This document shows, piece after piece, positions 47,255 through 64,000 of a stretch of DNA of 64,000 bases (the first letter of the stretch is position 1; the number at the start of each line of letters is the position of its first letter). The position numbers and the translations under genes were made by a program. Under the pieces are notes generated by a model. That model was not told the DNA's origin. It saw only the letters and a list, made by a program, of their open reading frames with translations, and did not search any database. Source of the DNA: Zavarzinia marina (GTDB lineage: Bacteria > Pseudomonadota > Alphaproteobacteria > Zavarziniales > Zavarziniaceae); assembly GCF_021568905.1 (NCBI RefSeq), contig NZ_JAKGSB010000003.1, positions 62,001 to 126,000 of the forward strand, in the 5' to 3' direction.

Positions 47255-48296
47255 GGCGATGCACCAGAAGCCAGAGGAAGAAGGGCCCGCCGATACAGCC
47301 GGTGACGATGCCGACCGGCAGTTCGGCCGGGGCAACGGCGAGGCGGGCGGTGATATCGGCCAGCAGCATCAGGAAGGCGCCGATCAGCGCCGCCGCCGGC
47401 AGCAGCAGGCGATGCCCGGGCCCGAGCGCGAGGCGGGCGAGATGGGGCGCCATCAGGCCGATGAAGCCGATCACCCCGGCAAGCGCCACCGCCGCGCCGA
47501 CGCCGATGCTGGTGGCGACGACGACGATCCGCTTCAGGCGCACGACGTCGAGCCCGAGGTGATGGGCCTCGCGCTCGCCGAGCAGCATGGCGTCGAGCGC
47601 GCGCGCCAGCCAGGGCAGGGCGACGAGGGGCGCCAGCAGGGCCGGCAGGCCCCAGAGGATGCCGTCGATCGGCGCCGCCGACAGGCTGCCCATGGTCCAG
47701 AACACCAGGGCGCGCAATTGCTGGTCGTCGCCGACGAAGACGAGAAGGCCGGTGCCGGCGGCGGCGAGTGCCGCGATGGCGATCCCGGCGAGCAGCAGGG
47801 CGGCGGTCGAGCCGCCGGCCAGCGCCGCGATCCGGGCGACGAGAAGGGTCGCGCCCAGGGCCCCGGCGAAAGCGGCCAGCGGCAGGGCATGGATACCGGC
47901 GAAATCGAGGCCCAGCGCGGGGCCGAGCACGATGAAGCCGACGGCGCCCAGCGTGCCGCCCGACGAGACGCCGATGATCCCGGGATCGGCCAGCGGGTTG
48001 CGGAACAGGCCCTGGAAGGCGGCGCCCGCGACCGCGAGGCCGGCCCCGACCAGAATGCCCAGAATCACGCGCGGCAGGCGGATGGCGAAGAGCACGGCGC
48101 CATGGGTGGGATCCGCCGGGGCCTGGCCGAACAGCATGGCCAGAATCTCGCCGGGCGGAATCGGCACCGGGCCGAGGCCGAGGCCGGCGATGGCGGCACC
48201 GCCGACGGCCAGTCCCAGCAGGCCCAGCACCAGGCCGCGCAGGCGGCGCCGGGCACTCACGTCCTGCCCCGGCGCCGCGACCGTGCCCACGGTCAT
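47238..48296 (-). CDS. hmuU: Heme ABC transporter permease (FecCD family)
   Basis: A 352-residue inner-membrane permease with about ten hydrophobic segments. Family motifs are RLPRVILGILVGAGLAVAGAAFQGLFRNPLADPGIIGVSSGG and the C-terminal GVIGFIGLMAPHLARLALGPGHRLLLPAAALIGA. It moves heme from the periplasm with HmuV and HmuT. ATG 48296 overlaps the hmuT stop by 4 bp. Confidence 0.93.
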   Translation of the reverse strand: MTVGTVAAPGQDVSARRRLRGLVLGLLGLAVGGAAIAGLGLGPVPIPPGEILAMLFGQAPADPTHGAVLFAIRLPRVILGILVGAGLAVAGAAFQGLFRNPLADPGIIGVSSGGTLGAVGFIVLGPALGLDFAGIHALPLAAFAGALGATLLVARIAALAGGSTAALLLAGIAIAALAAAGTGLLVFVGDDQQLRALVFWTMGSLSAAPIDGILWGLPALLAPLVALPWLARALDAMLLGEREAHHLGLDVVRLKRIVVVATSIGVGAAVALAGVIGFIGLMAPHLARLALGPGHRLLLPAAALIGAFLMLLADITARLAVAPAELPVGIVTGCIGGPFFLWLLVHRRAGRA

Positions 48297-49144
48297 GGGG
48301 CGGCCAGTTCGGGATGGATGTGGCGGGCGAGTTCCAGCACCGCCGCCGGGGTGCGCGGCCCGAAGCCGAGAAGAAACAGCCCGTCCATCACCACGATGTC
48401 GCCGTTCCGGCCCGCCGGGGTCTGATCCAGGGGGGCGAGGGCGGCGATCGCGGCGGGGCCGCCCAGGCGCTCGGCGACGTGATCCATCAGTACGATATAG
48501 TCGGGGGCGGCGGCGACGATCGCCTCGGTGCTGACGGGGCGAAAGCCGGTGACGCCCGACACGGCGTTGATGCCGCCGGCCATGGCGATCATGGCGTCGG
48601 CCGAGGTCCTGTCGCCGCCGGCGAGCGGCGCGCCCTTGCCGAGGTCGAGGAGGAAGAGCACGCGGGGCCGGCTGGTCGCCCGGCCGACGGTGGCGAAGGT
48701 TTCGGCGAAGGCGGCGGTAACCTCGGCGGCCAGGGCATCCCCCGCCGCCTCGGCATCGACCAGGGCGGCGACGGCGCGGATCTTCTCGGCGATGCCGTCG
48801 GGGCGGGGATCGTCGGGCAGGGTGCGGATGGGAATGCCCGCGCTCTCGATCTGCGCGATCGCATTGGCGGGACCGGCGTCCGGCGGCGCGATGATCAGAT
48901 CGGGCGAGAAGGCGATGACGCCTTCCGCCGTCAGGGCGCGGACATAGCCGACCTTGGGCAGGGCGAAGACCGCCGGCGGATAGGTGCTGGTCAGATCGGT
49001 CGCGACCAGATCCGTCTCCTTGCCGAGACGGTAGAGAATTTCCGTCGCCGAGCCGTCGAGGGAGACGATGCGGCCCGGCTCGGCCATCGCCGGCGCGGCG
49101 AGGGCGGAGAGGATGAGGGCGGCGGCGAGAAGGCGGCGCGGCAT
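48293..49144 (-). CDS. hmuT: Periplasmic heme-binding protein
   Basis: A 283-residue class III binding protein. It has a signal peptide (PRRLLAAALILSALAAPAMA) and then RIVSLDGSATEILYRLGKETDLVATDLTSTYPP, the usual HmuT/ShuT heme-pocket opening with a candidate Tyr ligand. It delivers heme to HmuUV. ATG 49144 overlaps the hmuS stop by one base; a GTG at 49147 is equally possible. Confidence 0.9.
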   Translation of the reverse strand: MPRRLLAAALILSALAAPAMAEPGRIVSLDGSATEILYRLGKETDLVATDLTSTYPPAVFALPKVGYVRALTAEGVIAFSPDLIIAPPDAGPANAIAQIESAGIPIRTLPDDPRPDGIAEKIRAVAALVDAEAAGDALAAEVTAAFAETFATVGRATSRPRVLFLLDLGKGAPLAGGDRTSADAMIAMAGGINAVSGVTGFRPVSTEAIVAAAPDYIVLMDHVAERLGGPAAIAALAPLDQTPAGRNGDIVVMDGLFLLGFGPRTPAAVLELARHIHPELAAP

Positions 49145-50214
49145 CACGCCCGGCCCGGCAGGCCGTCGACCAGATGGCGCCAGGCGTCCAGTTCGATCTC
49201 GCCGGGCTTGCGCTTGCCGAACAGCATGGCGATCAGATCGCCCTCGGCGTCGAACAGTTCGACCGAGGTGACGGTGCCGTCGCGCGTGGGCTTCTTCACC
49301 ACGTAACTGCTGGCGATCCGGTCCAGACGCAGATGCAGGTTGAAGCCCGGGTCCATCACGTTGATCCAGGGCCCCATCTCGACGATGTTGGCGACGGGGC
49401 CGGTGTGGATCTGGATCACGCCTGCACTGCCGACGAAGATCATGATCGGCAGGGCCTCGCCCGATGCGGTTTCCAGCAAGGGGCGGATGGCGGCCCTGTC
49501 GAGCGGGCGGCAGAATTCGTCGCCGATCAGGCGCAGCGCCTGTTCGCGGCGGACGTCGAAACGGCGCAGCAGGGCGAAGAACTCGTGGGTATCCTCCAGG
49601 GCGCGCCAGGCGGCGGCGAAGCCGCCGACGTCGATCGCCGCATCGGGGCGTTCCGCCGGCTTCGGCGCGACGGCGAAGACCGGCTGTTCCGGGCCCTGGC
49701 CGTCGGCGGTGAAATCAGCGACGAGGCGGTCGAAGGCGGCAATGTCGCTGCCGGCCCGCAGATAGACCTTGTGAACCGCCGTGCCGTCCTTGTCGAAGAA
49801 TTGCAGGCTGCGGCGGATGCCGTCCTTGGTGTCTTCGCGAAGGGCGAAACCCATGGCCCAATGGCCGAAAAAGATGCGCAGGTCGATGTCGGGATCGAGC
49901 ACGAGGCCGATATGGCCTTCGAGGGAGAGCTTGTCGTAGCGCCCGACCTTCTCGTGGACGCAGGATTCGTTCCGGGTCAGGGCCATGACCTCGCCCAGTT
50001 CGGGCAGCCGGGCGACGATCGCCGTGAAGCGTGGGGCCAGGCGGACCGTCGCGGCCGTGCCGCAGCCCAGCGCGACCAGTTCCCCCTCGCTGATGCCGAG
50101 GCGGGCGGCGGCCTCGCGGGCACGAAGCGCCGGCTCCGCCGCGCGCAGGTCGGCGAGGCGCCGGGCGAGGGCGGCAACATCGGTGGGCTGGGGCGGGGCG
50201 AGATCGTCGGGCAT
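49144..50214 (-). CDS. hmuS: Hemin-degrading / heme-trafficking protein HmuS
   Basis: A 356-residue cytoplasmic protein with two HemS-type halves: the first includes RNESCVHEKVGRYDKLSLEGHIGLVLDPDIDLRIFFGHW and the second WINVMDPGFNLHLRLDRI. It binds incoming heme and releases iron or passes heme on. ATG 50214 has GGAA upstream, whereas the longer 50271 reading overlaps a candidate operator. First gene of hmuSTUV, all overlapping by 1-17 bp. Confidence 0.9.
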   Translation of the reverse strand: MPDDLAPPQPTDVAALARRLADLRAAEPALRAREAAARLGISEGELVALGCGTAATVRLAPRFTAIVARLPELGEVMALTRNESCVHEKVGRYDKLSLEGHIGLVLDPDIDLRIFFGHWAMGFALREDTKDGIRRSLQFFDKDGTAVHKVYLRAGSDIAAFDRLVADFTADGQGPEQPVFAVAPKPAERPDAAIDVGGFAAAWRALEDTHEFFALLRRFDVRREQALRLIGDEFCRPLDRAAIRPLLETASGEALPIMIFVGSAGVIQIHTGPVANIVEMGPWINVMDPGFNLHLRLDRIASSYVVKKPTRDGTVTSVELFDAEGDLIAMLFGKRKPGEIELDAWRHLVDGLPGRA

Positions 50215-50253
50215 GGCTGTTTCCGTCGGAGCCGGGCAGATTTTAAGAGTCAC

Positions 50254-50265
50254 TTGCATTTGCAA
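50254..50265. promoter_or_regulatory. Palindromic element upstream of hmuS
   Basis: TTGCATTTGCAA, arms TTGCA / TGCAA, 40-51 bp before the hmuS start. It may be an iron-regulator site, but it does not match the classical Fur box closely. Confidence 0.35.
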
Positions 50266-50315
50266 TCGCATGGTGCCGCCGGGCTGTCAACCGGCAGCCC
50301 GGCGGCGGCGCGGCA

Positions 50316-52535
50316 TCAGAAACGATAGGTCGCGGTGACCCGGAAGTTCCGGCCCGGCTCGGAATAGAAGTCGTCCGGCTGGGTCGCGGTGTCGGGCACG
50401 CCCACGGCATTGCGATATTTCTCGTCGAAGACGTTGAACAGGCCGACTTCCAGCTTGGCCCCGGGCAGGAACCCGGGTTCCCACCAGCCGGTCAGATCGA
50501 AGACTTCGTAGGACGGGGTCTGCAGGTGGGTCACGCTCTGCGGGAAACCACGCACCATCGGCGGGTTCTCCACCTTCTCGCGCCCTGAAGCGATGGTCGC
50601 CGAGCCGGCGACGCCCCAGGTTGCCGCGTCATAGGACAGGCCGAGGATCGTCTTGGTCGGGGGGATCGAGTTCAGATGTTCCCCGACATCGACATCCTTG
50701 CCGCTCTGGACGGCCAGGCTGGCCCAGGTCCGCCAGCCCGGCGCGAAGCGCCACTGGCCGGACAATTCGACGCCCTGGATATGGACCTTGGCGCGGTTGA
50801 CATATTCGGTGACCCCGAGGGGGTAGTTCGCGGTGGCACCGGTATCCACCTCGTCGATAAAGTTCCGATAGAAGTTCTTATAGGCCGTGATCTTGCCGCC
50901 CAGATCCTCGTCGCCGAAACTGGCGCCGACTTCATAGCCGTTGCTGGTCTCGGGCTTCAGGTCCGGATTGCCGATCACCTGATAGGAACCGACCGAACCA
51001 TAGGTCAGATAGAGTTCCGTCGGGCTCGGAGCCCGGAACGCCTGCGCCCATTGGGCGAACAGCGTGACATTGTCGGTGGGATACCATTCGAGGAGAACCT
51101 TGGGGCTCAGCTTCGAATCGGATGAACCGGCGATCGGGCCGCTGTAGTTGGCATTGCCCTGATAGGCGGCATTGTCCTGCGGTTTCTGTTCGTACCAATC
51201 GTAGCGAAGACCCGGAGTCACCGCGACCGCGCCGCCGGCGACCGTGATCTTGTCCTCGATGTAGAGGCCGACGGTCTTACCCTCGGCATCCGGAGCATCG
51301 GCCTGATCGTCGTGCAGGAAATAGCAGGTGGAGAAGGGGATCGCGAAGGCCGGGCAGTTGTTCACGCTGTCGCTGAACTGCCTCGTCTCGTCGGCGATGA
51401 ATTCGCCGCCGTAACGCAGCGTGTTGCCGATGCCGCCGATATCGAAACGGCTGACCGCATTGCCGACGACGCCGAAGGCCTCCACCTGGTTGGTGTTGGT
51501 CTGGTCGAAGACGCCGACCGGGCTGGTCTGGCGTTCCGCGTCGCGAAAGCTGGTCAGCTTCACCTTCTGCCAATAGGCGATCGCCTCCGCCTCGTCGATC
51601 CAGCCGCCTGCGGCGGGGGCGGTGAACTTGTAATCGAGGGAGACACGCTGGCGCTCGCTTTCCTCCGTCTGCCGATAGTCGCCCGGCGCGAAATTCGTGT
51701 TGCCGGACAGGCTGTGGGCATCGATGTCTTCCTCCCGATCGAAGATCTCGGCCGTCAGGCCCAGGCGATGACCGGCCGCCAGATATTGATGCACGGTGAT
51801 CATCGCGTTGTAGCGGTCGTAATCCGCGGGATCCGCCTTGGTCCGGGTGGTGCCGTAGGTGTCGACCGACCCCTGGCTCGCGAGCTCGTTGCCCCGGCGG
51901 TAACCGCCCTGCGCCAGGAACCAGGTGTCACCGTGGCGGCCGGCCAGCGCCAGATTGCCGCGCCAGCTCTCGTCGGCGGAACTGTAGCCGCCCTTCAGGA
52001 GACCGCCGAAGACCTTGTCGCCCGTCAATATGTCCTCGGGCTGGAGGCTGCGCAGCGCCAGCACGCCGCCGAGCGCGCCCGAGCCGAAGAGGGAGGAATC
52101 CGCGCCCTTCTGGATGTCGAGGGACGAGAGGCCGCCGAAATCGAAGGTATCGGTGCCGCCGCGCTTGGCGCTGCCCGAACCGCTGGCGTCCCGCGCGCCA
52201 TAGACCAGATGGGGCAGGCGGATGCCGTCCAGCGTGGTCCGCACGCGGCTTTCCGAAAGGCCGCGGATATTGATGCTGCGGGTATCCCGGTCATAGGTGA
52301 TGGAAGGATCGACGCGCTGGCCGAGGTCCTCGATGCTCTCCACCTGGCGCCGGTCGAGGGTTTCGCGGTCGACGGTGGTCACGGTCGGGGCCTTGGGGGC
52401 CTGGGCTTCGACCAGCACCGGGTCGAGCACGACCGGTGCCGCGCCCTCTTCCGCGAAAGCCCGCAGACCGAAACCCGCCGTCATCACCGCGCCGAGGGCG
52501 ACGCCCCGCAACAGAAGTCCACGATCTCGAAACAT
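50316..52535 (-). CDS. hmuR: TonB-dependent heme/hemoglobin receptor
   Basis: A 739-residue outer-membrane receptor. A signal peptide ends near RAFAEEG. The plug includes DRRQVESIEDLGQRVDPSITYDRDTRSINIRGL and a glycine-rich GSGSAKRGGTDTFDFGG. The barrel has the heme-receptor signatures FRAPSPTELYLTYGS and VIGNPDLKPETS (the FRAP/NPDL boxes) and ends FRVTATYRF. It imports heme or heme from hemoproteins. ATG 52535 is preceded by a purine-rich GAGAGGGGCGAG, though spacing is long. A Fur box lies about 80 bp upstream. The hmuSTUV genes follow on the same strand. Confidence 0.92.
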   Translation of the reverse strand: MFRDRGLLLRGVALGAVMTAGFGLRAFAEEGAAPVVLDPVLVEAQAPKAPTVTTVDRETLDRRQVESIEDLGQRVDPSITYDRDTRSINIRGLSESRVRTTLDGIRLPHLVYGARDASGSGSAKRGGTDTFDFGGLSSLDIQKGADSSLFGSGALGGVLALRSLQPEDILTGDKVFGGLLKGGYSSADESWRGNLALAGRHGDTWFLAQGGYRRGNELASQGSVDTYGTTRTKADPADYDRYNAMITVHQYLAAGHRLGLTAEIFDREEDIDAHSLSGNTNFAPGDYRQTEESERQRVSLDYKFTAPAAGGWIDEAEAIAYWQKVKLTSFRDAERQTSPVGVFDQTNTNQVEAFGVVGNAVSRFDIGGIGNTLRYGGEFIADETRQFSDSVNNCPAFAIPFSTCYFLHDDQADAPDAEGKTVGLYIEDKITVAGGAVAVTPGLRYDWYEQKPQDNAAYQGNANYSGPIAGSSDSKLSPKVLLEWYPTDNVTLFAQWAQAFRAPSPTELYLTYGSVGSYQVIGNPDLKPETSNGYEVGASFGDEDLGGKITAYKNFYRNFIDEVDTGATANYPLGVTEYVNRAKVHIQGVELSGQWRFAPGWRTWASLAVQSGKDVDVGEHLNSIPPTKTILGLSYDAATWGVAGSATIASGREKVENPPMVRGFPQSVTHLQTPSYEVFDLTGWWEPGFLPGAKLEVGLFNVFDEKYRNAVGVPDTATQPDDFYSEPGRNFRVTATYRF

Positions 52536-52612
52536 GCCTTGCTCGCCCCTCTCGCACGAAATCGGCCGTCTCATCGAGATGATCGGCCGTTGAGGGACAG
52601 GGGTATTTGCGA

Positions 52613-52930: not shown

Positions 52931-54862
52931 ATGGGTCTCCTCATCAATATCGACAACGGCGGCACCCTGACGGACATCTGCGTCATCGACGGGGCCAAGG
53001 TTCATCACACCAAGACGATCACCACGCCCTACGACCTTTCGAAATGCTTCTTCGAGGGGCTGAAGAAAGCCTCGGTTGCGCTCTATGGCGAGGAGAAGCT
53101 GGTCGATCTGCTGCTGGCGACGGACCACATCCGCTATTCGACGACCCAGGGCACCAATGCCATCGTGGAGAAGAAGGGGCCGCGCCTCGGCCTGATCGTC
53201 GCCGCCGGCGACGATACCGCGGGCCTGACGGCGAACGGCGCCACCGCCGACATGTTCTCGGTGCTGGTCGGGCCCCGTCTCCAGAGGGTCGACCTCGCCC
53301 TCGAGGGCGGCGACTTCGATACCGCTCTGGTCTCGGCGGTCAACGCGCTGACCAACGACGGCGCCAACCGCATCGTCATCGCCTTCGCCGGCGACGACTA
53401 TCGCACCGCCGAGAAGGCGGTGAAGAAGGCGATCCTGCGCAAGTTTCCCCGTCACCTGCTGGGCGTCGTGCCGACCCTCTGCGCATCCGACCTGGTGGAC
53501 GACAGCGACGCCGTGCGCCGCACCTGGTCCGCCCTGATCAATGCCTTCCTGCATCCGGCGATGGAGACCTTCCTCTATAACGCCGAGGCCATTCTTCGCG
53601 AATACAAGCACCAGAACCCGCTGCTGATCTTCCGCAACGACGGGGATTCGTCCCGCGTCGCCCGCACCATCGCGGTGAAGACCTATGGCTCGGGCCCGCA
53701 GGGCGGCATGGAAGGCGCACGCGCCCTGGCCGGGCACTACGGTTTCAAGCGCCTGCTGACCATGGACATCGGCGGCACCACCACCGACATCGGCCTGGTC
53801 GAGGGCGGCATGCCCCGCGCCAACCGCCGCGGCGAGGTGGAGGACATCGAGATTTCCTTCCCGCTGTCGGAAATCGTCAGTGTCGGCGTCGGCGGTTCGT
53901 CGATCCTGAAGGTGGTCGACGGCGCCATCCAGGCCGGCCCCGAATCCGCCGGCGGCGCGCCGGGCCCGGCCTGCTTCGGCCTGGGCGGCACGCGGCCGAC
54001 CATCACCGACGTCTTCCTGCTGACCGGCCTGATCGATCCCGCCACCTATTTCGGCGGCGCCATGTCCCTCGACAAGGCCCGGGCCGAAGCGGCGGTGCGC
54101 AGCGAATTGGCGGAACCCCTCGGCGTCGATCTCGAAACCGCCCTGGCGGCGGCGGAAAAGGCCTGGGTGGGCAAGGTCGCCGACAGCCTGAAGGCCTTCA
54201 CCCGGATCGACCAGGACACGGTACTGGCGGCCTTCGGCGGCGCCGGTCCCTTCGTCGTCACCGCGATCGCCGAGGCGGCGGGTATCAAGCGGGTGATCAT
54301 CCCCGGTCTCGCCGCCGTCTTCTCGGCCTTCGGCATCGGCTTTTCCGATATCGCGCAGGGTTACAACCGGTCGGTCGGCAGGGGCGACGCGGCGGTGATC
54401 GAGGCGGCGGTCGCCGAACTGACCGCCCAGGCCAATCGCGACATGTTCGCCGAAGGTTTCGCGCTCTCCGACTGCCGCCTGGACTGGAGCCTGTCGCGTG
54501 ACGGCGGCAACGACACGGAGGGACAGCCCTGGAGCCCGGGGGCGCCGCTGCCGGCCGCCTTCGCGGGCGCGGACGACCTGGTTCTCGGCCTGCGCGCGGT
54601 CCGGGCCATCAATCACGCCAAGCTCGTCAACGGCGCGGCACCGCCCAGAACGGCGGCCGGCAGCGCCGGCAGCCGCCGCCTGGTCCTGCCCGGCGACGGC
54701 GAGGCGGAACTCGCCGTCCACCGCCTGGAGGACCAGATCCCGGGCGCCGAGGCGACCGGTCCCTGCATCCTCGAGGAAGCCTTCTTCACGGCGCGTATCG
54801 GCCGGGGGTGGCGCTTCGACGTCAATTCCAACCGCGACACCATGCTCGCCCGCGACAATTGA
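52931..54862 (+). CDS. Ketone carboxylase subunit, HyuA-like (ApcA-like, about 69 kDa)
   Basis: A 643-residue protein of the hydantoinase/oxoprolinase A family. Nucleotide-binding motifs are LINIDNGGTLTDICVID at the start and TMDIGGTTTDIGLVEGG in the middle. Later come GGSSILKVVDG, GPACFGLGGTRPTITD and FGGAGPFVVTAIAEAAGI. Subunits of this type activate bicarbonate or ketone with ATP in acetone and acetophenone carboxylases. It has a Gly-Asn substitution (DNGGT for the usual DIGGT) in the first phosphate loop. ATG 52931 has GAGGGAG upstream. First of six genes transcribed together. Confidence 0.85.
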   Translation: MGLLINIDNGGTLTDICVIDGAKVHHTKTITTPYDLSKCFFEGLKKASVALYGEEKLVDLLLATDHIRYSTTQGTNAIVEKKGPRLGLIVAAGDDTAGLTANGATADMFSVLVGPRLQRVDLALEGGDFDTALVSAVNALTNDGANRIVIAFAGDDYRTAEKAVKKAILRKFPRHLLGVVPTLCASDLVDDSDAVRRTWSALINAFLHPAMETFLYNAEAILREYKHQNPLLIFRNDGDSSRVARTIAVKTYGSGPQGGMEGARALAGHYGFKRLLTMDIGGTTTDIGLVEGGMPRANRRGEVEDIEISFPLSEIVSVGVGGSSILKVVDGAIQAGPESAGGAPGPACFGLGGTRPTITDVFLLTGLIDPATYFGGAMSLDKARAEAAVRSELAEPLGVDLETALAAAEKAWVGKVADSLKAFTRIDQDTVLAAFGGAGPFVVTAIAEAAGIKRVIIPGLAAVFSAFGIGFSDIAQGYNRSVGRGDAAVIEAAVAELTAQANRDMFAEGFALSDCRLDWSLSRDGGNDTEGQPWSPGAPLPAAFAGADDLVLGLRAVRAINHAKLVNGAAPPRTAAGSAGSRRLVLPGDGEAELAVHRLEDQIPGAEATGPCILEEAFFTARIGRGWRFDVNSNRDTMLARDN

Positions 54863-54873
54863 GGAGAAGAGCC

Positions 54874-55311
54874 GTGAAGGTTCTCGTGACCGAATATCTG
54901 CGCATCGATCTCGACACCGAGAAATGGGAATGCCGCAGCTGCAACCATGAAATCGGCAACGCGCGGGGCAACTACAAGGAAGGCCTGCTCGTCTACGACC
55001 GCGAGCCCGCCGAAATCCACAAGCCCCTGCTGGATCCGAAGCGTTACAGCCATACCTATACGCCGAATCCGAAATGGTGCCGCATCCTCGAATTCTACTG
55101 CCCGAACTGCGGCACGATGGTCGAGACCGAATATACCGTCCCCGGTCACCCGCCGGTGCATGACATCGAATTCGACATCGACGCCCTGAAGGCGCAATGG
55201 GCGACGCGGAAGCCCGTCACCGAACGTACCCCCGGCAAGGAACCGCCGCGCCACGAGCACCACCACCACGGCCACGGCCACGGCGCGGCCCACGCCCCGC
55301 AGAAGGACTGA
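54874..55311 (+). CDS. Small zinc-binding ketone carboxylase subunit (ApcB / AcxC-like)
   Basis: A 145-residue protein (about 17 kDa). Two CxxC pairs, WECRSCNHEIG and FYCPNCGTMVETEY, make a likely zinc site. The HPPVHDIEFDIDAL segment is shared with acetone carboxylase gamma. It ends in a His-rich tail, HEHHHHGHGHG, that could hold another metal. GTG 54874 has a strong GAGGAGA; an upstream ATG at 54808 lies inside the previous gene. The size fits the 15-kDa alpha-prime subunit of acetophenone carboxylase better than the 20-kDa gamma subunit of acetone carboxylase. Confidence 0.8.
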   Translation: MKVLVTEYLRIDLDTEKWECRSCNHEIGNARGNYKEGLLVYDREPAEIHKPLLDPKRYSHTYTPNPKWCRILEFYCPNCGTMVETEYTVPGHPPVHDIEFDIDALKAQWATRKPVTERTPGKEPPRHEHHHHGHGHGAAHAPQKD

Positions 55312-55315
55312 CCCG

Positions 55316-57451
55316 ATGAAGCGCGTCTCTGTCGATATCGGCGGCACGTTCACCGATTGCTTCGTGATCTGGGGTGATCGCTACGTCCAGTCCAAGGCCC
55401 TGACCACCAAGCACAATCTGGCGCTCGGCTTCAACGAGGCGCTGGACTTCGCCTGCCGCGAGGTCGGTACCACCCGCGAGACCATGCTGGCCGAGGTCGA
55501 TTCGGTCCGCTACGCGACCACCCTCGGCACCAATGCCCTGATCGAACGCCAGGGCCCGCGCATCGGCCTCATCACCACGGCGGGCTTCAAGTCGACCGTG
55601 CCGCTGTCGCGCGGCCGCGGCTACGGCGAAGGCCTGTCGATGAAGGCCCAGCAGGACATTCCGAACGCCGAACGGCCCCTGCCGCTGGTGCCGATCGAGA
55701 TGATCCGCATCGTGCGCGAGCGGATCGACTATCGGGGCGACGTGGTCATTCCGCTGGACGAGAACGACCTGCGCGTCCAGATCCGCGACCTGGTGGATGC
55801 CGGCGCCGAGGCGATCGTCGTCGCCCTGACCAACGCCGTGGTCAATCCGGCCCACGAGTTGCGTATCCAGGAAATCTTCGTCGAGGATTATCCCGAGCAC
55901 ATGCTGGGCGCGCTGCCGCTTCTCCTGTCCCATCAGGTGGCGGGGCGGAAGGGCGAATACGTCCGTTCCATGTCGACCATCATGGACGCCTTCCTGCACA
56001 AGGTGATGTATTTCGGCCTGTCGTCGCTGGAGCGCAACCTGCGCGGTTCCGGCTACGACAAGCCGATGCTGGTCGTCCACAATTCGGGCGGCATGGCCCA
56101 GCTGAACTCGACCGACGCGCTGCAGACCGTCCATTCCGGGCCGGTCTCGGGTATCGCGGCGGCGGAACATCTGGCGAAACAGGCCGGGCTCGGCAATGTC
56201 GTCGCCACCGACATGGGCGGCACCTCCTACGACATCGGCCTCGTCGTCGACGGCGGCGTGAAGTTCTACGACTTCCAGCCGACCATCGAACGCTGGCTGG
56301 TGACCGTGCCGATGGTCCATCTGGCCACGCTCGGCTCCGGCGGCGGCTCCATCGCCCAGCACAACCGCATGTACGACACGGTGCAATGCGGGCCGAAGAG
56401 CGCGGGGTCGGATCCGGGCCCGGCCTGCTACGACCGCGGCGGCATGAAGCCGACGGTGACCGATGCCGATCTCGTCCTCGGCTATCTCGATCCGGGCAAT
56501 TACGCCAACGGTTACATCAAGCTGAACCCGAAGCGCGCCCGCCAGGTCATGGAGGACGAGATCTGCGATCCGCTCGATCTCGATCTGATCGATGCGGCCA
56601 AGCTGATCAAGAGCACGGTCGACCTCGACATGGCGAACGGCGTCGCGACGGAGCTGCGCAGCTTCGGTTACGAGCCGAGCGAGTTCACGCTGCTCACCTA
56701 TGGCGGCAACGGCCCGCTCCATGCCTGCGGCATCGCGCGCGGTCTCGGCATCGGCCGCATCCTGGCACCGCCCTTCGCCTCGGTCTTCTCGGCCTGCGGC
56801 GCCGGCAACCTCAGCCAGCTCCACATCCACGAGATGTCGACCTTCACCGTCCTGTTCGACAGCAACACGAAGCAGCTCTTCACCGACTTCCCGGCCTTCA
56901 ACGCCATGGTGGAGGAACTGGAGCGGCGCGGGCGCGAGGATCTGCTGCGCCAGGGCATGCCGGAAGACAAGATCCAGTATCGCCTGGAGCTCGACATGCG
57001 CTACGGCAACCAGCGCGTCCAGACGACGGTGGTGACCGATCTGACCCGCCTGTCCTCGATCGCGGACGTGGTGAAGCTGATCGGGCAATTCCACAAATCC
57101 TATGGCGACCGTTTCGGCGAGGGCAGCCAGGCGGCGGAGGCGGGGGTTCGCATCAACACCATCCGCGTCTGTTCCTTCGTCGAGGTCGATGCGGTGGATT
57201 TCCAGAACATCCATCCCGGCGACAAGCGTGTCGCGACCCCGGCGCCGGTCGGCTCCCGCGCGTGCCACTTCGTCGATCACGACGGCGCGATCGAGACCGC
57301 GATCTACGACGAGGCGGCGCTGGAACACGGCGTCGTCATCGACGGCCCGGCCATCGTGACCACCAGTCACACCACCTATCTGGTCGAACCCGGCTGGCGC
57401 TATGAAGCGGCGGCCCAGGGCGCGGTGTGGTTCACCCGCATCGACGCCTGA
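55316..57451 (+). CDS. Ketone carboxylase subunit, HyuA-like (AcxA / second ATPase subunit)
   Basis: A 711-residue protein. VSVDIGGTFTDCFVIW and VATDMGGTSYDIGLVVDGG are the two phosphate-binding motifs, with SGGMAQLNSTDAL, GSGGGSIAQHN and GPACYDRGGMKPTVTDADL between and after. Size (about 78 kDa) matches acetone carboxylase beta and the 75-kDa acetophenone carboxylase subunit. It differs from the first HyuA-like subunit of the operon, so the enzyme has two distinct ATPase subunits, as acetophenone carboxylase does. AAGGA precedes ATG 55316. The 5' neighbour is 4 bp away. Confidence 0.9.
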   Translation: MKRVSVDIGGTFTDCFVIWGDRYVQSKALTTKHNLALGFNEALDFACREVGTTRETMLAEVDSVRYATTLGTNALIERQGPRIGLITTAGFKSTVPLSRGRGYGEGLSMKAQQDIPNAERPLPLVPIEMIRIVRERIDYRGDVVIPLDENDLRVQIRDLVDAGAEAIVVALTNAVVNPAHELRIQEIFVEDYPEHMLGALPLLLSHQVAGRKGEYVRSMSTIMDAFLHKVMYFGLSSLERNLRGSGYDKPMLVVHNSGGMAQLNSTDALQTVHSGPVSGIAAAEHLAKQAGLGNVVATDMGGTSYDIGLVVDGGVKFYDFQPTIERWLVTVPMVHLATLGSGGGSIAQHNRMYDTVQCGPKSAGSDPGPACYDRGGMKPTVTDADLVLGYLDPGNYANGYIKLNPKRARQVMEDEICDPLDLDLIDAAKLIKSTVDLDMANGVATELRSFGYEPSEFTLLTYGGNGPLHACGIARGLGIGRILAPPFASVFSACGAGNLSQLHIHEMSTFTVLFDSNTKQLFTDFPAFNAMVEELERRGREDLLRQGMPEDKIQYRLELDMRYGNQRVQTTVVTDLTRLSSIADVVKLIGQFHKSYGDRFGEGSQAAEAGVRINTIRVCSFVEVDAVDFQNIHPGDKRVATPAPVGSRACHFVDHDGAIETAIYDEAALEHGVVIDGPAIVTTSHTTYLVEPGWRYEAAAQGAVWFTRIDA

Positions 57452-57468
57452 GAAGAAGGAGAGCAACC

Positions 57469-59736
57469 ATGAACGTCATGCCCGGGATCGCCACGCTCAG
57501 CGTCGGCGAGCGCAAGATCCTGCAGGATTTCGTGGACGAGCATCAGCTCTTCTACGGCCCCGATCCCGCGATCATGCGCAACCACCATCTCGAGCCGCGG
57601 ACCGATATGGAAGACGCGGCGATGAAGAAGCACGACGACCCGCACCTCCTGAACCAGGTGCGCGGGCGGGTGATCTCCGCCCTGTCGGAAAGCTTCCGCA
57701 TGGTCGAGCAGATGGGCGCCGCCCCGGGCGCCAAATGGGGCGATCTGGTCACGGCGATCTTCACCGCGAGCGGCGATCTTTCGGAAATCTCGCCCGCCGG
57801 CATCGTCACCTTCGCCGGCGTCTGCCAGTATCCGATCAAGTTCATCAACAAGTACTGGACCGACGATCCGTCGGTCGGCGTGCGCCACGGCGACGGCTTC
57901 ATCCATAACGACTCGCGTTACGGCGGAATCCACAACACCGACCAGTCGATGATGATGCCCGTGTTCCACGAGGGCGAACTGGTGTGCTGGGTCTCGTCCA
58001 CCATCCACGAGGGCGAGAACGGCGCGATCGAGCCGGGCGGCATGCCCGCCAAGGCCGAATCCCGCTTCGACGAAGGGCTGAAGATGAGCCCGTTCAGGAT
58101 CGTCGAGGACTTCCAGGTCAAGCGCGACATCCTCACCTTCCTGCAGAATTCGGTGCGCGATCCGAAGCTGCAGTACGAGGACGTGAAGGTGAAGCTGCAC
58201 GCCTGCATCCGACTGATGGAGCGCGTGCGCTCGGTCATCGCGGAATTCGGCAAGGATGCGCTGGTCGCCTATCTGCGCCGGAACCTCGAGGATACCGAGG
58301 CCGAGGTGCACCGCCGCATCGCGGAGCTGCCGGATGGCGTGGTGCGCTTCAACACCTGGATCGACTCGACCCTGCGGGAGCCCGCGCTGGTCAAGATCGC
58401 CTGCGCCGCCCGGGTGAAGGGCGACCGCATGTGCATGGACTTCCGGGGCTCATCGCCCCAATTGTCCAACCGATCGATCAATGCGGTGATCGGCTCGACC
58501 AAGGTCTGTTTCCTCACCGGCGTCCTGCAGAACATCTGGCCGGACCTGCCGCACAACCTCGGCGTTCTCGCCGCCTTCGACTTCGAGACGGACCCCAATT
58601 CCCTGATCGACGCCAACAACGACGCGCCCTGCGCCATGAGCCTTCTGCCCATGTTCAGGACCATCACCGTGGCGACGGTTTCCTTCCCGAAGTTCATCTA
58701 CGGCCTGCCGGACGGCGCCAAGGCGCGGGCGACCGTGACCATCGCCGGCCAGTACAACCAGCCCGCCACCTTCGTCTACGGCGGCCTGACCCAGCACATG
58801 GACGTGACCGGCAATTTCTGCGCCGACATCAACGGCAACGGCCAGGGTGCCCGCGAGAACCGCGATGGCGAACATTCCGTCTCGCCGCTGTTCGGCTTCA
58901 TGTGCGACACCGGCGAGCACGAGCTGGCGGAAGAGGAACTGCCCATGGTGCGCCTGATCGCCCAGCATCTGGCGCGGGACCGCGTGGGCTGGGGCAAGTA
59001 TCGCGGCGGCCTCGGCTACGAGCAGATGGTGACCGTGCGCGGCACCAACATGTGGGGCTTCATGACCGGTCAGTCCGGCTCGTGGTTCTGTTCCGCCCCC
59101 GGCCTGTTCGGCGGCTACAACTGCCCGGCCTATCCGATCGGCAAGGTCAAGGACGTCAACGTCTTCGACTGGTTCGCGAAGGAAGGCAACGCCGCGCGCT
59201 TCCCCTATGGCATCGTCGAGCTGATGAACGAGCAGCCGATCGAGGGTGCCCGCTACCTGACGGCCGACGCCGGCATGACCTTCGAACTGGTGGAGGAAGG
59301 CGAGATCTACATGATCTGCCAGGGCGCCGGTGCCGGTTACGGCGACGTCCTGGAGCGCGATCCCGAAGCGGTGATGCAGGATCTGCGCGAAGACCTGATC
59401 AGCCATGAATCGGCTCGGGACATCTACCACGTCGTCTACGACGAGCGGACCCTGATCGTCGACGTCGCGGCGACCGAAAAGGCGCGCGCCGGCGAGCGGG
59501 CGGCCCGCAAGGCGCGGGGCCGGAAATATGCCGACTTCGTCGCCGACTGGGTGACCGAGGCACCGGCCGAGGACCTGCCCTACTATGGCTCCTGGGGTGA
59601 TCCGGCGACGGTCTACACCGGCGCCGGCGCCGCCCGTCAGATGCTGGACGCCGGCACGATCCAGCCGATCTTCATGGCGGACCCGCGCGACGTCCGTATC
59701 GCCGAACTCGAAGCGCAACTGGCGGCGAAGGGCTGA
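57469..59736 (+). CDS. Ketone carboxylase subunit, HyuB-like (catalytic/carboxylating type)
   Basis: A 755-residue hydantoinase B family protein (about 85 kDa). Recognisable stretches are GDGFIHNDSRYGGIHNTDQSMMMPVFHEGELVCWVSSTIHEGENG and later CMDFRGSSPQLSNRSINAV, typical of acetone carboxylase alpha. This subunit holds the site where ketone enol and carboxyl donor meet. It probably binds metal through the HND and H/E-rich loops. ATG 57469 has GAAGGAGAG upstream; extension to 57427 overlaps the previous gene. A 4-bp gap to the next gene indicates one transcript. Confidence 0.9.
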   Translation: MNVMPGIATLSVGERKILQDFVDEHQLFYGPDPAIMRNHHLEPRTDMEDAAMKKHDDPHLLNQVRGRVISALSESFRMVEQMGAAPGAKWGDLVTAIFTASGDLSEISPAGIVTFAGVCQYPIKFINKYWTDDPSVGVRHGDGFIHNDSRYGGIHNTDQSMMMPVFHEGELVCWVSSTIHEGENGAIEPGGMPAKAESRFDEGLKMSPFRIVEDFQVKRDILTFLQNSVRDPKLQYEDVKVKLHACIRLMERVRSVIAEFGKDALVAYLRRNLEDTEAEVHRRIAELPDGVVRFNTWIDSTLREPALVKIACAARVKGDRMCMDFRGSSPQLSNRSINAVIGSTKVCFLTGVLQNIWPDLPHNLGVLAAFDFETDPNSLIDANNDAPCAMSLLPMFRTITVATVSFPKFIYGLPDGAKARATVTIAGQYNQPATFVYGGLTQHMDVTGNFCADINGNGQGARENRDGEHSVSPLFGFMCDTGEHELAEEELPMVRLIAQHLARDRVGWGKYRGGLGYEQMVTVRGTNMWGFMTGQSGSWFCSAPGLFGGYNCPAYPIGKVKDVNVFDWFAKEGNAARFPYGIVELMNEQPIEGARYLTADAGMTFELVEEGEIYMICQGAGAGYGDVLERDPEAVMQDLREDLISHESARDIYHVVYDERTLIVDVAATEKARAGERAARKARGRKYADFVADWVTEAPAEDLPYYGSWGDPATVYTGAGAARQMLDAGTIQPIFMADPRDVRIAELEAQLAAKG

Positions 59737-59740
59737 CGGC

Positions 59741-60553
59741 ATGGGGGCGTTTCGCGATCTCCTCTCGAAGGGCGGGCGGCGCCCCCGCTGGCTCGACGCC
59801 ACGGACTATTGCGGGCGCCTGCTCGCCGCGGGCGACATTCCCTGGGGGGATGTCACCCGTCTCGTCGACTGGCACCGCAAGGCGCAGGGCCTGCTTCGGC
59901 CCGACGTCGCGGTGCTGCCGTTGGCGCCCATGCTGACGGCCTGGGTGGCGGCGCATCCCGCGCTCGGCGAGGCGATGTCGGCCCGCCGCCGCCTGCTCTA
60001 CCCGCTGAAGACCCTGCTGTCGGACGAGGGCGCGCGCGATCACATCCGCGCGACCCTGGCCGGGCTCCGGGCGTCCCACGCGGGGCTTCCGCTGGCCCTC
60101 GTCCTGCCGGCGCCGGCGGATTTCGTCGCGCTGGCGGCGGATCTCGCTGGGACGGAAGCGGGCGAGGTCGATGCCGAGGACGCGGACAGCGCGGCCATGT
60201 ATATGGCCGACTTCCTGCGTGCCTTCGGCGACAGCGGGCTCGACGCCCTGCTGCTCGAAACCGCCAGCGCCGCCGCCGATGCTGTGGTCGCCGCCTGCGG
60301 TCCGGTGCTGAACATCGCCGGCCACTATCGCTGGGACGTCGGCCTGCGGCACGGCGGCGAGGCGGTGCCGGCGGGCATCGACTTCCAGGTCGCCGCCACG
60401 CCGGCGCCGGGCGTTCCGACCGGCATCGCCCTTGCCGCCGATTTCTGGCGCGACGGCGCGCCGCCGCCCCAGGGGGGCGATTTCATCTTCGCGGCCGTTC
60501 CGGCGGACGCCCAGCCCGAGGCCGTGCTCGCGCGGCTTCAGGCCCTGAACTGA
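59741..60553 (+). CDS. Fifth operon subunit, ApcE-like, unknown role
   Basis: A 270-residue protein (about 28 kDa) with no motif I can assign firmly. Segments LYPLKTLLSDEGARDHIRATLAGLRASHAGLPLALVLPAPADF and NIAGHYRWDVGLRHGGEAVPAGIDFQV suggest an alpha/beta (TIM-barrel-like, UroD/MetE-type) fold. Its position after the HyuA/HyuB genes and before the ligase equals that of the 34-kDa epsilon subunit of acetophenone carboxylase, which is needed for activity but dissociates from the core. The call rests on position and size. ATG 59741 follows the previous stop by 4 bp. Confidence 0.55.
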   Translation: MGAFRDLLSKGGRRPRWLDATDYCGRLLAAGDIPWGDVTRLVDWHRKAQGLLRPDVAVLPLAPMLTAWVAAHPALGEAMSARRRLLYPLKTLLSDEGARDHIRATLAGLRASHAGLPLALVLPAPADFVALAADLAGTEAGEVDAEDADSAAMYMADFLRAFGDSGLDALLLETASAAADAVVAACGPVLNIAGHYRWDVGLRHGGEAVPAGIDFQVAATPAPGVPTGIALAADFWRDGAPPPQGGDFIFAAVPADAQPEAVLARLQALN

Positions 60554-60569
60554 TTATGAGACTGGGGGA

Positions 60570-62576
60570 ATGACCATGGTGAAGGAAGGCGATCTGCTGT
60601 GGACGCCGTCGAAGCAATTCGTCGAATCCTCGAACGTCATGCTCTTCATGAACTGGCTGCGCGCGACGCGGGGCCTGGACTTCCCTGATTACGACGCCCT
60701 CTGGCGCTGGTCGGTCGAGGACACGGAAGGCTTCTGGACGGCGCTCTGGGCCTATTTCGAAGTGGCGTCCTCCACCCCCTATCTGCGTGCCGTCGACCGT
60801 CTCGACATGGCGCCGGGGGTTCGATGGTTCGAAGGCTCCCACGTCAATTACGCCGAGCACATGCTGCGCCACGAGGGCGAGGGGGACGAGGTCGCGCTCC
60901 ACCACCTCTCGGAGATCCGCCCCCTCGGCGCCATGACAAGACGCGAACTGGGACGCCAGGTGCGGATCGTCGCCACCCAGTTGCGGGCGCTGGGCGTGAA
61001 GCCGGGCGACCGCGTCGTCTCCTACATGCCGAACATCCCGGAGACGGCGGTGGCCATGCTGGCGGCGACGGCGATCGGCGCCATCTGGTCCAGCGCCGCA
61101 CCCGAATTCGGCGTGAAGACGGTGATCGAGCGTTTCTCGCAGATCGAGCCCAAGGTCCTGTTCGCGGCCGACGGCTATCGCTTCGGCGGCAAGGATTTCG
61201 ACCGGACGGAGGAAGTGCGCTCCATCGTCGCCGCCCTGCCGTCCCTGAAGACCGTCGTCTGGCTGCCCTATCTGAACGAGACGCGGGAGACGCCGCCGGT
61301 CGCGGACGCCATGCTGTGGCGCGAATTGCTGGACCATTCCGAGGTGCCGCGCCATCTCTTCGTCTACGAGCGCGTGCCCTTCGACCATCCGCTGTGGATC
61401 GTCTTTTCCTCCGGCACCACGGGCTTGCCCAAGGCGATCGCCCACAGCCACGTCGGCGCCCTGATGGAGCATCTGAAGCTCGCCCATTTCCACCTGAACC
61501 TGAAGCCGGAATCGGTGATCTTCTTCTATACGACCACCGGATGGGTGATGTGGAACATCGTGCTGGCCGGCCTGCTGATGGGCTCGGCCGTGGTCGCCTA
61601 TGACGGCAGCCCGGTGCATCCGGCGCCCGACGTGCTCTGGAAGATGGCGGCGGATACGGGCACCACCTGCTTCGGCGCCAGCCCGACCTATGTCCAGATC
61701 CTCGAGCGCCAGGGTCTCGAGCCCGGCAAGACCTTCGACCTGTCGCGCCTCGATTCGATCCTGCTGGGCGGCTCGCCCGCGACGCCGGAGAGCTTCGCCT
61801 GGTTCTACCGCTCGGTGAAATCGGATCTCTGGCTGACCTCGCAGAGCGGCGGCACGGAGATCGCCTCCGGCTTCGTCGGCGCCTCGCCGACCCTGCCGGT
61901 CCATGCCGGCGAGATCCAGACCCGGATGCTCGGCATGGACGTCCACGCCTTCGACGACGACGGCAAGGAAATACTCGACGCGGTCGGCGAACTGGTGGTG
62001 ACCCGGCCCTTCCCCTCCATGCCCGTCTTCTTCTGGGGCGACAAGGACGGGCGGCGCTATCACGAATCCTATTTCGACGTCTATCCGGGCGTCTGGCGCC
62101 ATGGCGACTTCATCAAGATCAACGACCGCGGCGGCTGTTACATCTACGGTCGTTCCGACTCGACCCTGAACCGCTATGGCGTGCGCATCGGCACCTCCGA
62201 GATCTATCGCGCGGTCGAACAGGTGGAAGGCGTCGCCGACAGTCTGATCGTTTGTTGTGAATTGTCGGGCGGAACCTTCTACATGCCGCTGTTCGTCAAG
62301 ACGGCGCCCGGCGTAACGCTTGACGATCAGATGCGGAAATCCATCAACTCGAAGTTGCGTCAGGATTACAGCCCGCGGCACGTGCCCGACGAAATCCATC
62401 AGGTCCCGGACATTCCCTATACGCTGACCGGCAAGAAGATGGAGATCCCGGTGCGCAAGATCCTCATGGATTGGGCGCCGGAACGCGCCGCGAGCCGCGA
62501 TGCCATGACCAATCCGCCCGCGCTGGACTGGTACATCGGCCTCGCGACCCGGCGGCGGGTGAATGCTGTCGCCTGA
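60570..62576 (+). CDS. Acetoacetyl-CoA synthetase / benzoylacetate-CoA ligase-like
   Basis: A 668-residue ANL-superfamily ligase. Adenylation motif IVFSSGTTGLPKAIAHSHVG is near residue 276, GCYIYGRSDSTLNRYGVRIGTSEIYRA contains the hinge, and PYTLTGKKMEIPVRKI provides the catalytic Lys. Overall it matches acetoacetyl-CoA synthetases, the group that also includes the benzoylacetate ligase of acetophenone degradation. It should activate the beta-keto acid made by the carboxylase. ATG 60570 is preceded by GGGGGA; ATG 60576 is an alternative. Confidence 0.88.
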   Translation: MTMVKEGDLLWTPSKQFVESSNVMLFMNWLRATRGLDFPDYDALWRWSVEDTEGFWTALWAYFEVASSTPYLRAVDRLDMAPGVRWFEGSHVNYAEHMLRHEGEGDEVALHHLSEIRPLGAMTRRELGRQVRIVATQLRALGVKPGDRVVSYMPNIPETAVAMLAATAIGAIWSSAAPEFGVKTVIERFSQIEPKVLFAADGYRFGGKDFDRTEEVRSIVAALPSLKTVVWLPYLNETRETPPVADAMLWRELLDHSEVPRHLFVYERVPFDHPLWIVFSSGTTGLPKAIAHSHVGALMEHLKLAHFHLNLKPESVIFFYTTTGWVMWNIVLAGLLMGSAVVAYDGSPVHPAPDVLWKMAADTGTTCFGASPTYVQILERQGLEPGKTFDLSRLDSILLGGSPATPESFAWFYRSVKSDLWLTSQSGGTEIASGFVGASPTLPVHAGEIQTRMLGMDVHAFDDDGKEILDAVGELVVTRPFPSMPVFFWGDKDGRRYHESYFDVYPGVWRHGDFIKINDRGGCYIYGRSDSTLNRYGVRIGTSEIYRAVEQVEGVADSLIVCCELSGGTFYMPLFVKTAPGVTLDDQMRKSINSKLRQDYSPRHVPDEIHQVPDIPYTLTGKKMEIPVRKILMDWAPERAASRDAMTNPPALDWYIGLATRRRVNAVA

Positions 62577-62741: not shown

Positions 62742-64000
62742 ATGTTGGTCAGAACCAAATTTCTGCCGCCAAGTCTGCTTACCAATATCGTGCGGCGTAA
62801 GAATCTCGACGATTATTTCGAGAACCTGCCGGCTCACACTGTCACCATGGTGCGGGCGCCCGCTGGCTTCGGCAAGACGACGCTTCTCGCGGATTGGCGA
62901 AAGCGTCTTCTTTTCGATGGCGCCCGGGTCGCCTGGCTCAGTCTGGATTTCCACGACAACGAGCCGACGCAACTGCTGACATATCTGCTCGGCGCCCTCG
63001 ACCAGGCTTTCGAGAACGACCGGCAGACGGGCACCTCCTTCCTGTCGGCGTCGGGCAACATGGCGCCGTCCCAGGTCGCGGGCTTCATCGTCAACGAAGT
63101 GCAGCAACTCGGCGACGACATCTACGTCTTCCTCGACGACGTGCACGAGCTCAATTCGGCGCCCGTGCTCTCGGTGCTCTACGACCTGCTGCATTACGCG
63201 CCGCCGAACCTGCATTTCGTGCTCGCCGGGCGGCCCGCCATGTGGCTCGGCCTGTCGCGGCTGAAGCTGCAGGGCCGGGTGCAGGAAACCGACATCGGCG
63301 AAATGCGCTTCGACATCGCCGAGGCGATCGAATTCTTCCGCCTGCGCGGCCACAACCTGCTGCGCCTCACCGACATCGACACCCTGAACCAGGCGACCGA
63401 AGGCTGGGTCGCCGGTCTCTGCCTCGCCGCGCAGTCGCTGAACCGCAAGCGCAACGTCTCCGAATTCGTCGAGACCTTCTGCGGCGAGACCAAGGAGATC
63501 ACGGACTACATCCGCGAAACCGTATTCCGCCAGATCGGCGAGGAAGACCGTCGCTGGCTGGTGCGGGTCTCGATCCTGTCGCGCTTCTGTCCCAATCTCT
63601 GCGACACGCTGCTGGACACCACCGATTCCGAGGCGCGCATCCACCGCCTGATCGAGGAAGTGCCCTTCATCATCCCCCTCGAGGGGACGGAGGGATGGGC
63701 CCGGCTGCATCCCCTGCTGCGGGAATTCCTGGCGGGCGAGGTCGGCCAGATGGAGGCGGAGGAGTTGCGCGCCCTGCACAAGCGCGCCGCCACCTGGTTT
63801 TCCTCCCGGGGCGAGATATCGGAGGCGATCCACCACGCGATCGAGGAGGGCGATACCGCGCGTGCCATCGGCATGATCGCCCGCCAGTCGCGTCACCTGG
63901 TCGAGACGGCGCAGATCCTCCTTCTCATGAGCTGGTACGAACGCCTGCCCAAGAGCCTGTTCGTCGAGCGCCTGGATCTTTCGGTCGACGTCGGCTGGGC
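62742..64000 (+). CDS. MalT-like LuxR-family ATP-dependent regulator (partial, runs off the right edge)
   Basis: 419 codons are visible, open to the end of the window. The N-terminal STAND-type NTPase has Walker A VRAPAGFGKTTLLADW (residues 41-48 at its core) and Walker B DIYVFLDDVHEL (about 128-135). Further features are FVLAGRP and FDIAEAIEFFRLRGHNLL. Later, AIHHAIEEGDTARAIGMIARQS begins a tetratricopeptide-like region. The LuxR DNA-binding domain expected at the C-terminus lies outside. Such proteins sense a ligand or protein and bind DNA when ATP-loaded. It follows the carboxylase-ligase operon on the same strand, so it is the likely regulator of that pathway. ATG 62742 chosen; Shine-Dalgarno is weak. 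Confidence 0.85.
   Translation, partial: MLVRTKFLPPSLLTNIVRRKNLDDYFENLPAHTVTMVRAPAGFGKTTLLADWRKRLLFDGARVAWLSLDFHDNEPTQLLTYLLGALDQAFENDRQTGTSFLSASGNMAPSQVAGFIVNEVQQLGDDIYVFLDDVHELNSAPVLSVLYDLLHYAPPNLHFVLAGRPAMWLGLSRLKLQGRVQETDIGEMRFDIAEAIEFFRLRGHNLLRLTDIDTLNQATEGWVAGLCLAAQSLNRKRNVSEFVETFCGETKEITDYIRETVFRQIGEEDRRWLVRVSILSRFCPNLCDTLLDTTDSEARIHRLIEEVPFIIPLEGTEGWARLHPLLREFLAGEVGQMEAEELRALHKRAATWFSSRGEISEAIHHAIEEGDTARAIGMIARQSRHLVETAQILLLMSWYERLPKSLFVERLDLSVDVGW

Follow-up and report, generated by a model that had tools for sequence, protein, structure and literature searches.

A six-gene operon of Zavarzinia marina for a predicted five-subunit ketone carboxylase of the acetophenone carboxylase type and its ligase

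The window analysed here is a stretch of 64,000 nucleotides from the alphaproteobacterium Zavarzinia marina (contig NZ_JAKGSB010000003.1, positions 62,001 to 126,000), and near its end lie six consecutive plus-strand genes (52931-62576), which encode the five subunits (A to E) of a putative ketone carboxylase resembling acetophenone carboxylase (Apc) and a CoA ligase. Namely, the genes are those of subunit A (52931-54862; 643 amino acids (aa); ApcA or alpha-prime type, HyuA-like), subunit B (54874-55311; 145 aa; ApcB or gamma type, Acetone_carb_G, with a Cys4 zinc site, a His-rich C-terminal tail and an inferred GTG start codon), subunit C (55316-57451; 711 aa; ApcC or alpha type, HyuA-like), subunit D (57469-59736; 755 aa; ApcD or beta type, HyuB-like, with a predicted dimer core), subunit E (59741-60553; 270 aa, about 28 kDa; ApcE or epsilon type) and an AMP-forming ligase of the acetoacetate-CoA-ligase type (60570-62576; 668 aa). 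The intergenic gaps are 11, 4, 17, 4 and 16 base pairs in this order and, because they amount to just 4-17 base pairs, the six genes most likely form a single operon. A promoter scan gave no signal above chance and a terminator scan one weakly above chance. The first-pass annotation, which was made from the letters of the sequence, had listed six genes with this span, order and content, and all of them are present; for A to D, the phmmer E-values against the PDB are far beyond chance. Furthermore, three more genomes from the genus keep the same six-gene order, with identities of approximately 61-91%.

When subunits A to D were searched against the PDB by phmmer, the best matches were those of Apc throughout. 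Subunit A hit ApcA of 5l9w first (E 2.7e-82), and Apc outscored the three-subunit acetone carboxylase (Acx) for B (ApcB, E 2.9e-31 vs Acx gamma, 2e-11), C (ApcC, 2.7e-156 vs Acx beta, 2.4e-80) and D (ApcD, 4e-78 vs Acx alpha, 6e-36). The Apc equivalog models of NCBIfam also ranked first for A, B, C and D, yet all four cut-offs were missed widely (score/cut-off in bits: A, 328/1250; B, 133/250; C, 552/1500; D, 307/1500), and identity to the subunits of Aromatoleum aromaticum EbN1 was 31% (A), 37% (C) and 29% (D). The ASKHA ATP motifs (PHOSPHATE 1, PHOSPHATE 2 and ADENOSINE) are intact in both A and C, and those in A read DNGGTLTD, DIGGTT and GGAPGP. The Apc alpha fingerprint (R/KERiDsxG), which is absent from alpha-prime, is present in C at residue 134 as RERIDYRG and was not found in A. 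C is predicted to use ATP for activating the ketone to an enol phosphate, and A to use ATP for activating bicarbonate. Subunit D keeps the D/H/D/H metal-binding set that corresponds to D65, H123, D126 and H148 of Apc, the first of which is Glu in Acx. Subunit B matches PF08882 (E 2.8e-39) and has the four conserved gamma Cys residues as CRSC and CPNC pairs, with 10 His residues beyond the second pair. Apc differs from Acx in a beta subunit shorter by about 50 aa and in a gamma subunit that lacks an N-terminal extension. In terms of length, B is Apc-like, but D with its 755 aa is closer to Acx alpha (776) than to ApcD (684).

The His-rich tail of B lies at 55221-55308, and 9-13 His residues follow the last Cys pair in four members of the genus; short gamma tails of the HxH type were noticed in most of the clade described below, and none in three EbN1-type loci checked. 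This tail possibly serves metal acquisition. Also, CobW-type (G3E) GTPases adjoin the carboxylase in five loci (L045:15341-16651, L047:17956-19149, L053:15234-16220, L126:22095-23210 and L143:14956-16080); this family is one that includes metallochaperones.

Subunit E had no match in Pfam or NCBIfam, and a profile of 19 E sequences found none in the PDB. An AlphaFold2 model of E was built from 16 relatives with a mean predicted local distance difference test score (pLDDT) of 95.1 and a predicted template modelling score (pTM) of 0.92, and in a Foldseek search of this model against the PDB, the first three matches were ApcE chains (9fou; E 2.5e-7 to 1.9e-6, 15-18% identity, TM-score 0.62-0.67), followed by uroporphyrinogen decarboxylases (UroD) and then cobalamin-dependent methionine synthase. 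UroD has the same fold but ranks behind ApcE, with 10-17% identity and no sequence-level match; E looks like a degenerate UroD-like barrel. Because Foldseek places ApcE first and the gene position fits, the modelled fold identifies E as the epsilon subunit; the fifth gene, which the first-pass annotation had described as that of an approximately 28-kDa protein, has thus received an identity. Close orthologues of ApcE were found in only two other genomes, and a strong divergence was noted (PMC5214803); E in this operon, recognizable by fold only, shows the extent of that divergence. In Cupriavidus, E was initially thought to be missing but is present behind the gene of a short-chain dehydrogenase/reductase (SDR), which in Cupriavidus necator N-1 is inserted between D and E (L129:18411-19184); E was not found for TMED61. 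A gene annotated as uroporphyrinogen decarboxylase family was noticed in Haloterrigena between the A-like and B genes (L131:10629-11597), and this is perhaps its own version of a UroD-fold epsilon subunit.

In quick trees of C and D, the window fell into the same clade of 25 rows, which was separate from the EbN1 Apc clade, Acx and hydantoinases (Shimodaira-Hasegawa-like approximate likelihood-ratio test (SH-aLRT), 99 in both). A more careful tree of C kept the window clade (23 rows) as one group with a support of 99/96. In the approximately unbiased (AU) test, a grouping of the window clade with Acx was rejected (p 1.2e-5), as was a placement of the genus inside the EbN1 Apc clade (p 2.2e-7), with p values that are somewhat optimistic given that the naming of the groups followed the inspection of a first tree. 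The phylogeny against Apc and Acx that had been proposed as a check was run on C and D, and no clustering with Acx was thus obtained. By subunit composition, gene order and phylogeny, the genes specify a full five-subunit Apc-type carboxylase and not an Acx-type one; the gene order of Apc-type carboxylases is alpha-prime, gamma, alpha, beta and epsilon, apcABCD(E) (PMC5214803). The earlier view that the operon fits five-subunit Apc better than three-subunit Acx is therefore borne out by composition, gene order, PDB matches and the trees of C and D.

The clade is rare. The E profile found matches in 3 of 399 genomes of Proteobacteria, including the genome of the window, and C was found at ≥60% identity in 8 of 385 genomes from the class, this genus accounting for four of the eight. 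Its members come from Alpha-, Beta- and Gammaproteobacteria, from Actinobacteria (Gordonia, Arthrobacter, Rhodococcus and Prauserella) and from the haloarchaeon Halorientalis, and several of them are plasmid-borne; this distribution was taken from the best 80 loci of a genome scan and is a lower bound. In the other genomes, genes were called by a simple codon-usage caller, and neighbours were assigned by BLAST to the window proteins. A search of the open-access full-text literature found no characterized member of the window clade, which does not imply an absence overall.

The site of the ketone was compared at the seven positions of ApcC proposed as such (PMC5214803), where the alignment was free of gaps at the positions inspected. 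The window C has T-V-H-P-I-H-L in place of L-F-N-P-I-Q-T in EbN1 Apc, and five of the seven positions hence differ. Nearly all members of the window clade follow the consensus T-[VIL]-H-P-I-H-L, with the second His replaced by Tyr in the gammaproteobacterial member and Halorientalis and by Asp in Prauserella, while the consensus is [LM]-[FY]-N-P-I-[QK]-[TS] in the EbN1 clade and L-I-V-P-M-A-M in Acx. Namely, F281 of Apc, which is Phe or Tyr across the EbN1 clade, corresponds to Val, Ile or Leu in the window clade, and N282 and Q344 correspond to His. Because the pocket residues were assigned only tentatively by the Apc authors (PMC5214803), these sequence comparisons show a different site and not a known substrate.

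The ligase passes the curated cut-offs of NCBIfam (TIGR01217, 802.8 bits against 520.9; NF002937, 915.4 against 639), matches the acetoacetate-CoA ligase (AACS) of Streptomyces lividans (PDB 4wd1) over its full length (E 3e-202) and has no second copy in the genome at E ≤ 1e-60. While it is above the AACS cut-offs, its lineage contains many carboxylase-linked copies, and it has FGASPTY in place of FGTSAKY. Together with the AACSs from three carboxylase-carrying genomes and from genome G187, in which no carboxylase was found, the window AACS forms a group (SH-aLRT 99) apart from the main alphaproteobacterial AACS group, and the carboxylase-linked AACSs are 57-60% identical within their kind vs mostly 39-51% to other alphaproteobacterial AACSs. 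In genome G033, an AACS of the window's group is on another contig with no part of the carboxylase nearby. Beside the carboxylase, we found AACS in this genus, Cupriavidus and genome G326, a 3-oxoacid CoA-transferase in the ligase's place in Neorhizobium and Arthrobacter, and FadD-like ligases in Sphingopyxis, Thalassovita, the gammaproteobacterial member, Prauserella, Halorientalis and genome G626, in a survey where some contigs end too early for partner assignment.

Downstream of the ligase, a gene for a MalT-type LuxR regulator (62742-64000, plus strand, continuing beyond the window end; 922 aa; PF17874 and PF00196) is a candidate regulator of the operon, and a MalT-type regulator is linked to the operon in this genus, G033, G326, Arthrobacter, Sphingopyxis, Thalassovita, Cupriavidus N-1 and G626. 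Just beyond the window end are genes for an SDR, a medium-chain reductase and an SCPx-type thiolase. In this genus and Sphingopyxis, the SCPx-type thiolase and the medium-chain reductase, which is curcumin-reductase-like, adjoin the MalT-type regulator; the recurring thiolases are 62-68% and the reductases 51-76% identical. Thalassovita has the thiolase without the reductase, and G326 the reductase without the thiolase. In Cupriavidus and G626, the operon contains or is directly followed by an SDR resembling secondary-alcohol dehydrogenases. In G033, an acetone-carboxylase-like gene set adjoins the ABCDE operon and runs into the contig end (L037:16420-19729). Taken together, the neighbours fit a route from a ketone through a beta-keto acid and its CoA ester to thiolytic cleavage. 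Between the SDR and medium-chain reductase genes, we also noticed a plus-strand gene for a 154-aa protein (L043:8578-9042) with no NCBIfam match, which may be of the DUF3237 type. Directly upstream of the operon, divergent minus-strand genes (46448-52574) include that of a TonB-dependent heme/hemoglobin receptor (50316-52574), and the adjoining genes resemble those of heme uptake; they are probably unrelated to the operon because the upstream region differs in other members of the genus.

No three-subunit acetone carboxylase was found in the genome, since the sole other HyuB-like locus is a 5-oxoprolinase-type fusion frame of 1217 aa. A search for Phenol_Hydrox revealed three soluble diiron monooxygenase systems, none of which was named by NCBIfam models, so that their typing is not firm. 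Two of them flank a second MalT-type regulator (C13:326001-344026, L150), and the third is near a 2-hydroxymuconic semialdehyde dehydrogenase (C10:643001-662000, L151). The neighbours of these systems (a MobR-like phenol regulator and 2-hydroxymuconic semialdehyde dehydrogenase) point to aromatic substrates, and the organism therefore probably degrades aromatic compounds. Among benzoyl-CoA enzymes, BoxB and BcrC were searched for, and neither was found.

While the parts, their families, both sets of ATP motifs, the metal-site residues, the fold of E and the clade are observations, we infer the chemistry, the part played by each subunit and the kind of substrate. Apc itself carboxylates acetophenone while two ATP are converted to two ADP, and the following mechanism is proposed by analogy with it. 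In this biotin-free, Apc-type carboxylase, C would phosphorylate the enolized ketone with one ATP, and A would phosphorylate bicarbonate to carboxyphosphate with a second ATP, while D and B would form the core in which the carbon-carbon bond is made, and E would dock transiently to complete the cycle. The AACS-type ligase might then convert the beta-keto acid to a CoA ester, from which the linked SCPx-type thiolase would release acetyl-CoA together with an acyl-CoA. The ketone itself could arise from a secondary alcohol or an enone through the linked SDR and medium-chain reductase. From its composition, motifs, fold and neighbours, it is very probable that the complex carboxylates a ketone at the expense of ATP in the manner of Apc. 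A quite different function, either as an ATP-dependent lactam/hydantoin hydrolase or as a carboxylase of a non-ketone substrate, appears highly improbable: the superfamily of the large subunits is shared with 5-oxoprolinase and hydantoinase and the clade has no known activity, but the hydrolases of the family have alpha and beta subunits only (PMC5214803), a two-subunit plan not followed here with gamma, alpha-prime and epsilon all present, and several lineages repeatedly have enzymes for the activation of a beta-keto acid at this locus.

The substrate had been left unfixed by the first-pass annotation, and our analysis comes to the same view; nonetheless, it is most likely a non-aromatic ketone, because the pocket has V/I/L-H-H-L where the EbN1 clade has F/Y-N-(Q/K)-(T/S), because the partner genes point the same way and because BoxB and BcrC are absent from the genome. 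Our tentative preference, with a probability of roughly 0.4, is that the ketone is non-aromatic and larger than acetone, be it aliphatic, branched or alicyclic, and that its carboxylation feeds a dedicated degradation route. This is suggested by the SCPx-type thiolase and medium-chain reductase recurring beside the carboxylase, by the operon-linked AACSs forming a lineage apart from most alphaproteobacterial AACSs, and by the SDRs in Cupriavidus and G626; also, the ABCDE operon in G033 would not be needed for acetone given the Acx directly beside it. Several points weigh against this preference. The ligase is above curated AACS cut-offs and 3-oxoacid CoA-transferases take its place in Neorhizobium and Arthrobacter, both of which fit acetoacetate and thus acetone; the thiolase and reductase are outside the operon and transcribed towards it; both operons of G033 could serve acetone under different conditions; and the pocket comparison depends on tentatively assigned residues. 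A carboxylation of acetone or butanone by the same five-subunit enzyme, with acetoacetate activated by AACS and cut to two acetyl-CoA, is a somewhat less probable alternative, for which the operon-adjacent AACS of Cupriavidus and G326 and the lack of three-subunit Acx in this genome would also speak. For acetoacetate, however, the recurring thiolase and reductase are superfluous, the pocket is unlike that of Acx, and a propane-to-acetone route was not supported, as no propane-type monooxygenase was identified and the three diiron systems look aromatic-type. The evidence is mixed as to whether the substrate is acetone or butanone or else a larger non-aromatic ketone, and we lean slightly to the larger one.

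It is rather improbable that the enzyme carboxylates acetophenone or another aryl ketone as in Aromatoleum, with the ligase as a benzoylacetate-CoA ligase. Apc is the best solved relative of every subunit, and aromatics are probably encountered, considering the aromatic-type diiron monooxygenases and the 2-hydroxymuconic semialdehyde dehydrogenase; nonetheless, a placement inside the EbN1 Apc clade was rejected, the aromatic F281 is replaced, as are N282 and Q344, we noticed no genes for 1-phenylethanol or ethylbenzene at the locus, and the two routes of benzoyl-CoA use represented by BoxB and BcrC are absent, with other routes outside the search. Going further than our preference for a larger non-aromatic ketone, one might speculate that these five-subunit carboxylases form a clade transferred widely among Proteobacteria, Actinobacteria and a haloarchaeon, that they act on a class of bulky non-aromatic ketones whose carboxylation is not known (for example, methyl ketones of the branched, terpenoid or alicyclic kind) and that their repurposed UroD-like epsilon subunit joins the carbon-carbon bond step; taken as a whole, we consider this unlikely.

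As of the structure paper of 2017, the Apc branch had one characterized enzyme (PMC5214803), and the operon described here marks a second clade in at least a dozen lineages, often on plasmids, which keeps the five subunits and both ATP sites together with a different, almost fixed ketone pocket. The identity of its substrate would tell if the five-subunit, two-ATP plan is general for inert ketones and not just for aryl ketones. Also, since E is recognizable here by fold only, the clade provides a divergent set suited for probing the role of epsilon, which was left open (PMC5214803).

In comparison with AcxABC of Xanthobacter autotrophicus (5svb and 5m45), the operon shares homologous alpha, beta and gamma subunits and the His/Asp/His metal ligands; Glu89 of Acx is Asp here as in Apc, whereas His150, Asp153 and His175 are kept. 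In contrast, alpha-prime and epsilon are absent from Acx, and identity is 26.5% for C and 25% for D. The closest known system is ApcABCDE-Bal of A. aromaticum EbN1 (5l9w for the core and 9fou for epsilon), from which the operon differs in the alpha-prime pocket (E/D/K there and S/G-D-D here), in a D longer by approximately 70 aa, in the His-rich gamma tail of the genus and in the MalT/LuxR regulator, EbN1 being reported to use the two-component system AdiRS (PMC4729919). Shared with EbN1 are the five subunits in the same order with a CoA ligase behind them, the two ATP-binding HyuA-like subunits, the Cys4 gamma subunit, the D/H/D/H set in the HyuB-like subunit and the epsilon fold. The initial label of an acetophenone-carboxylase-like operon therefore does not extend to orthology with the EbN1 enzyme, given the separate clade, the missed cut-offs and the pocket, but holds well for the Apc-type plan.

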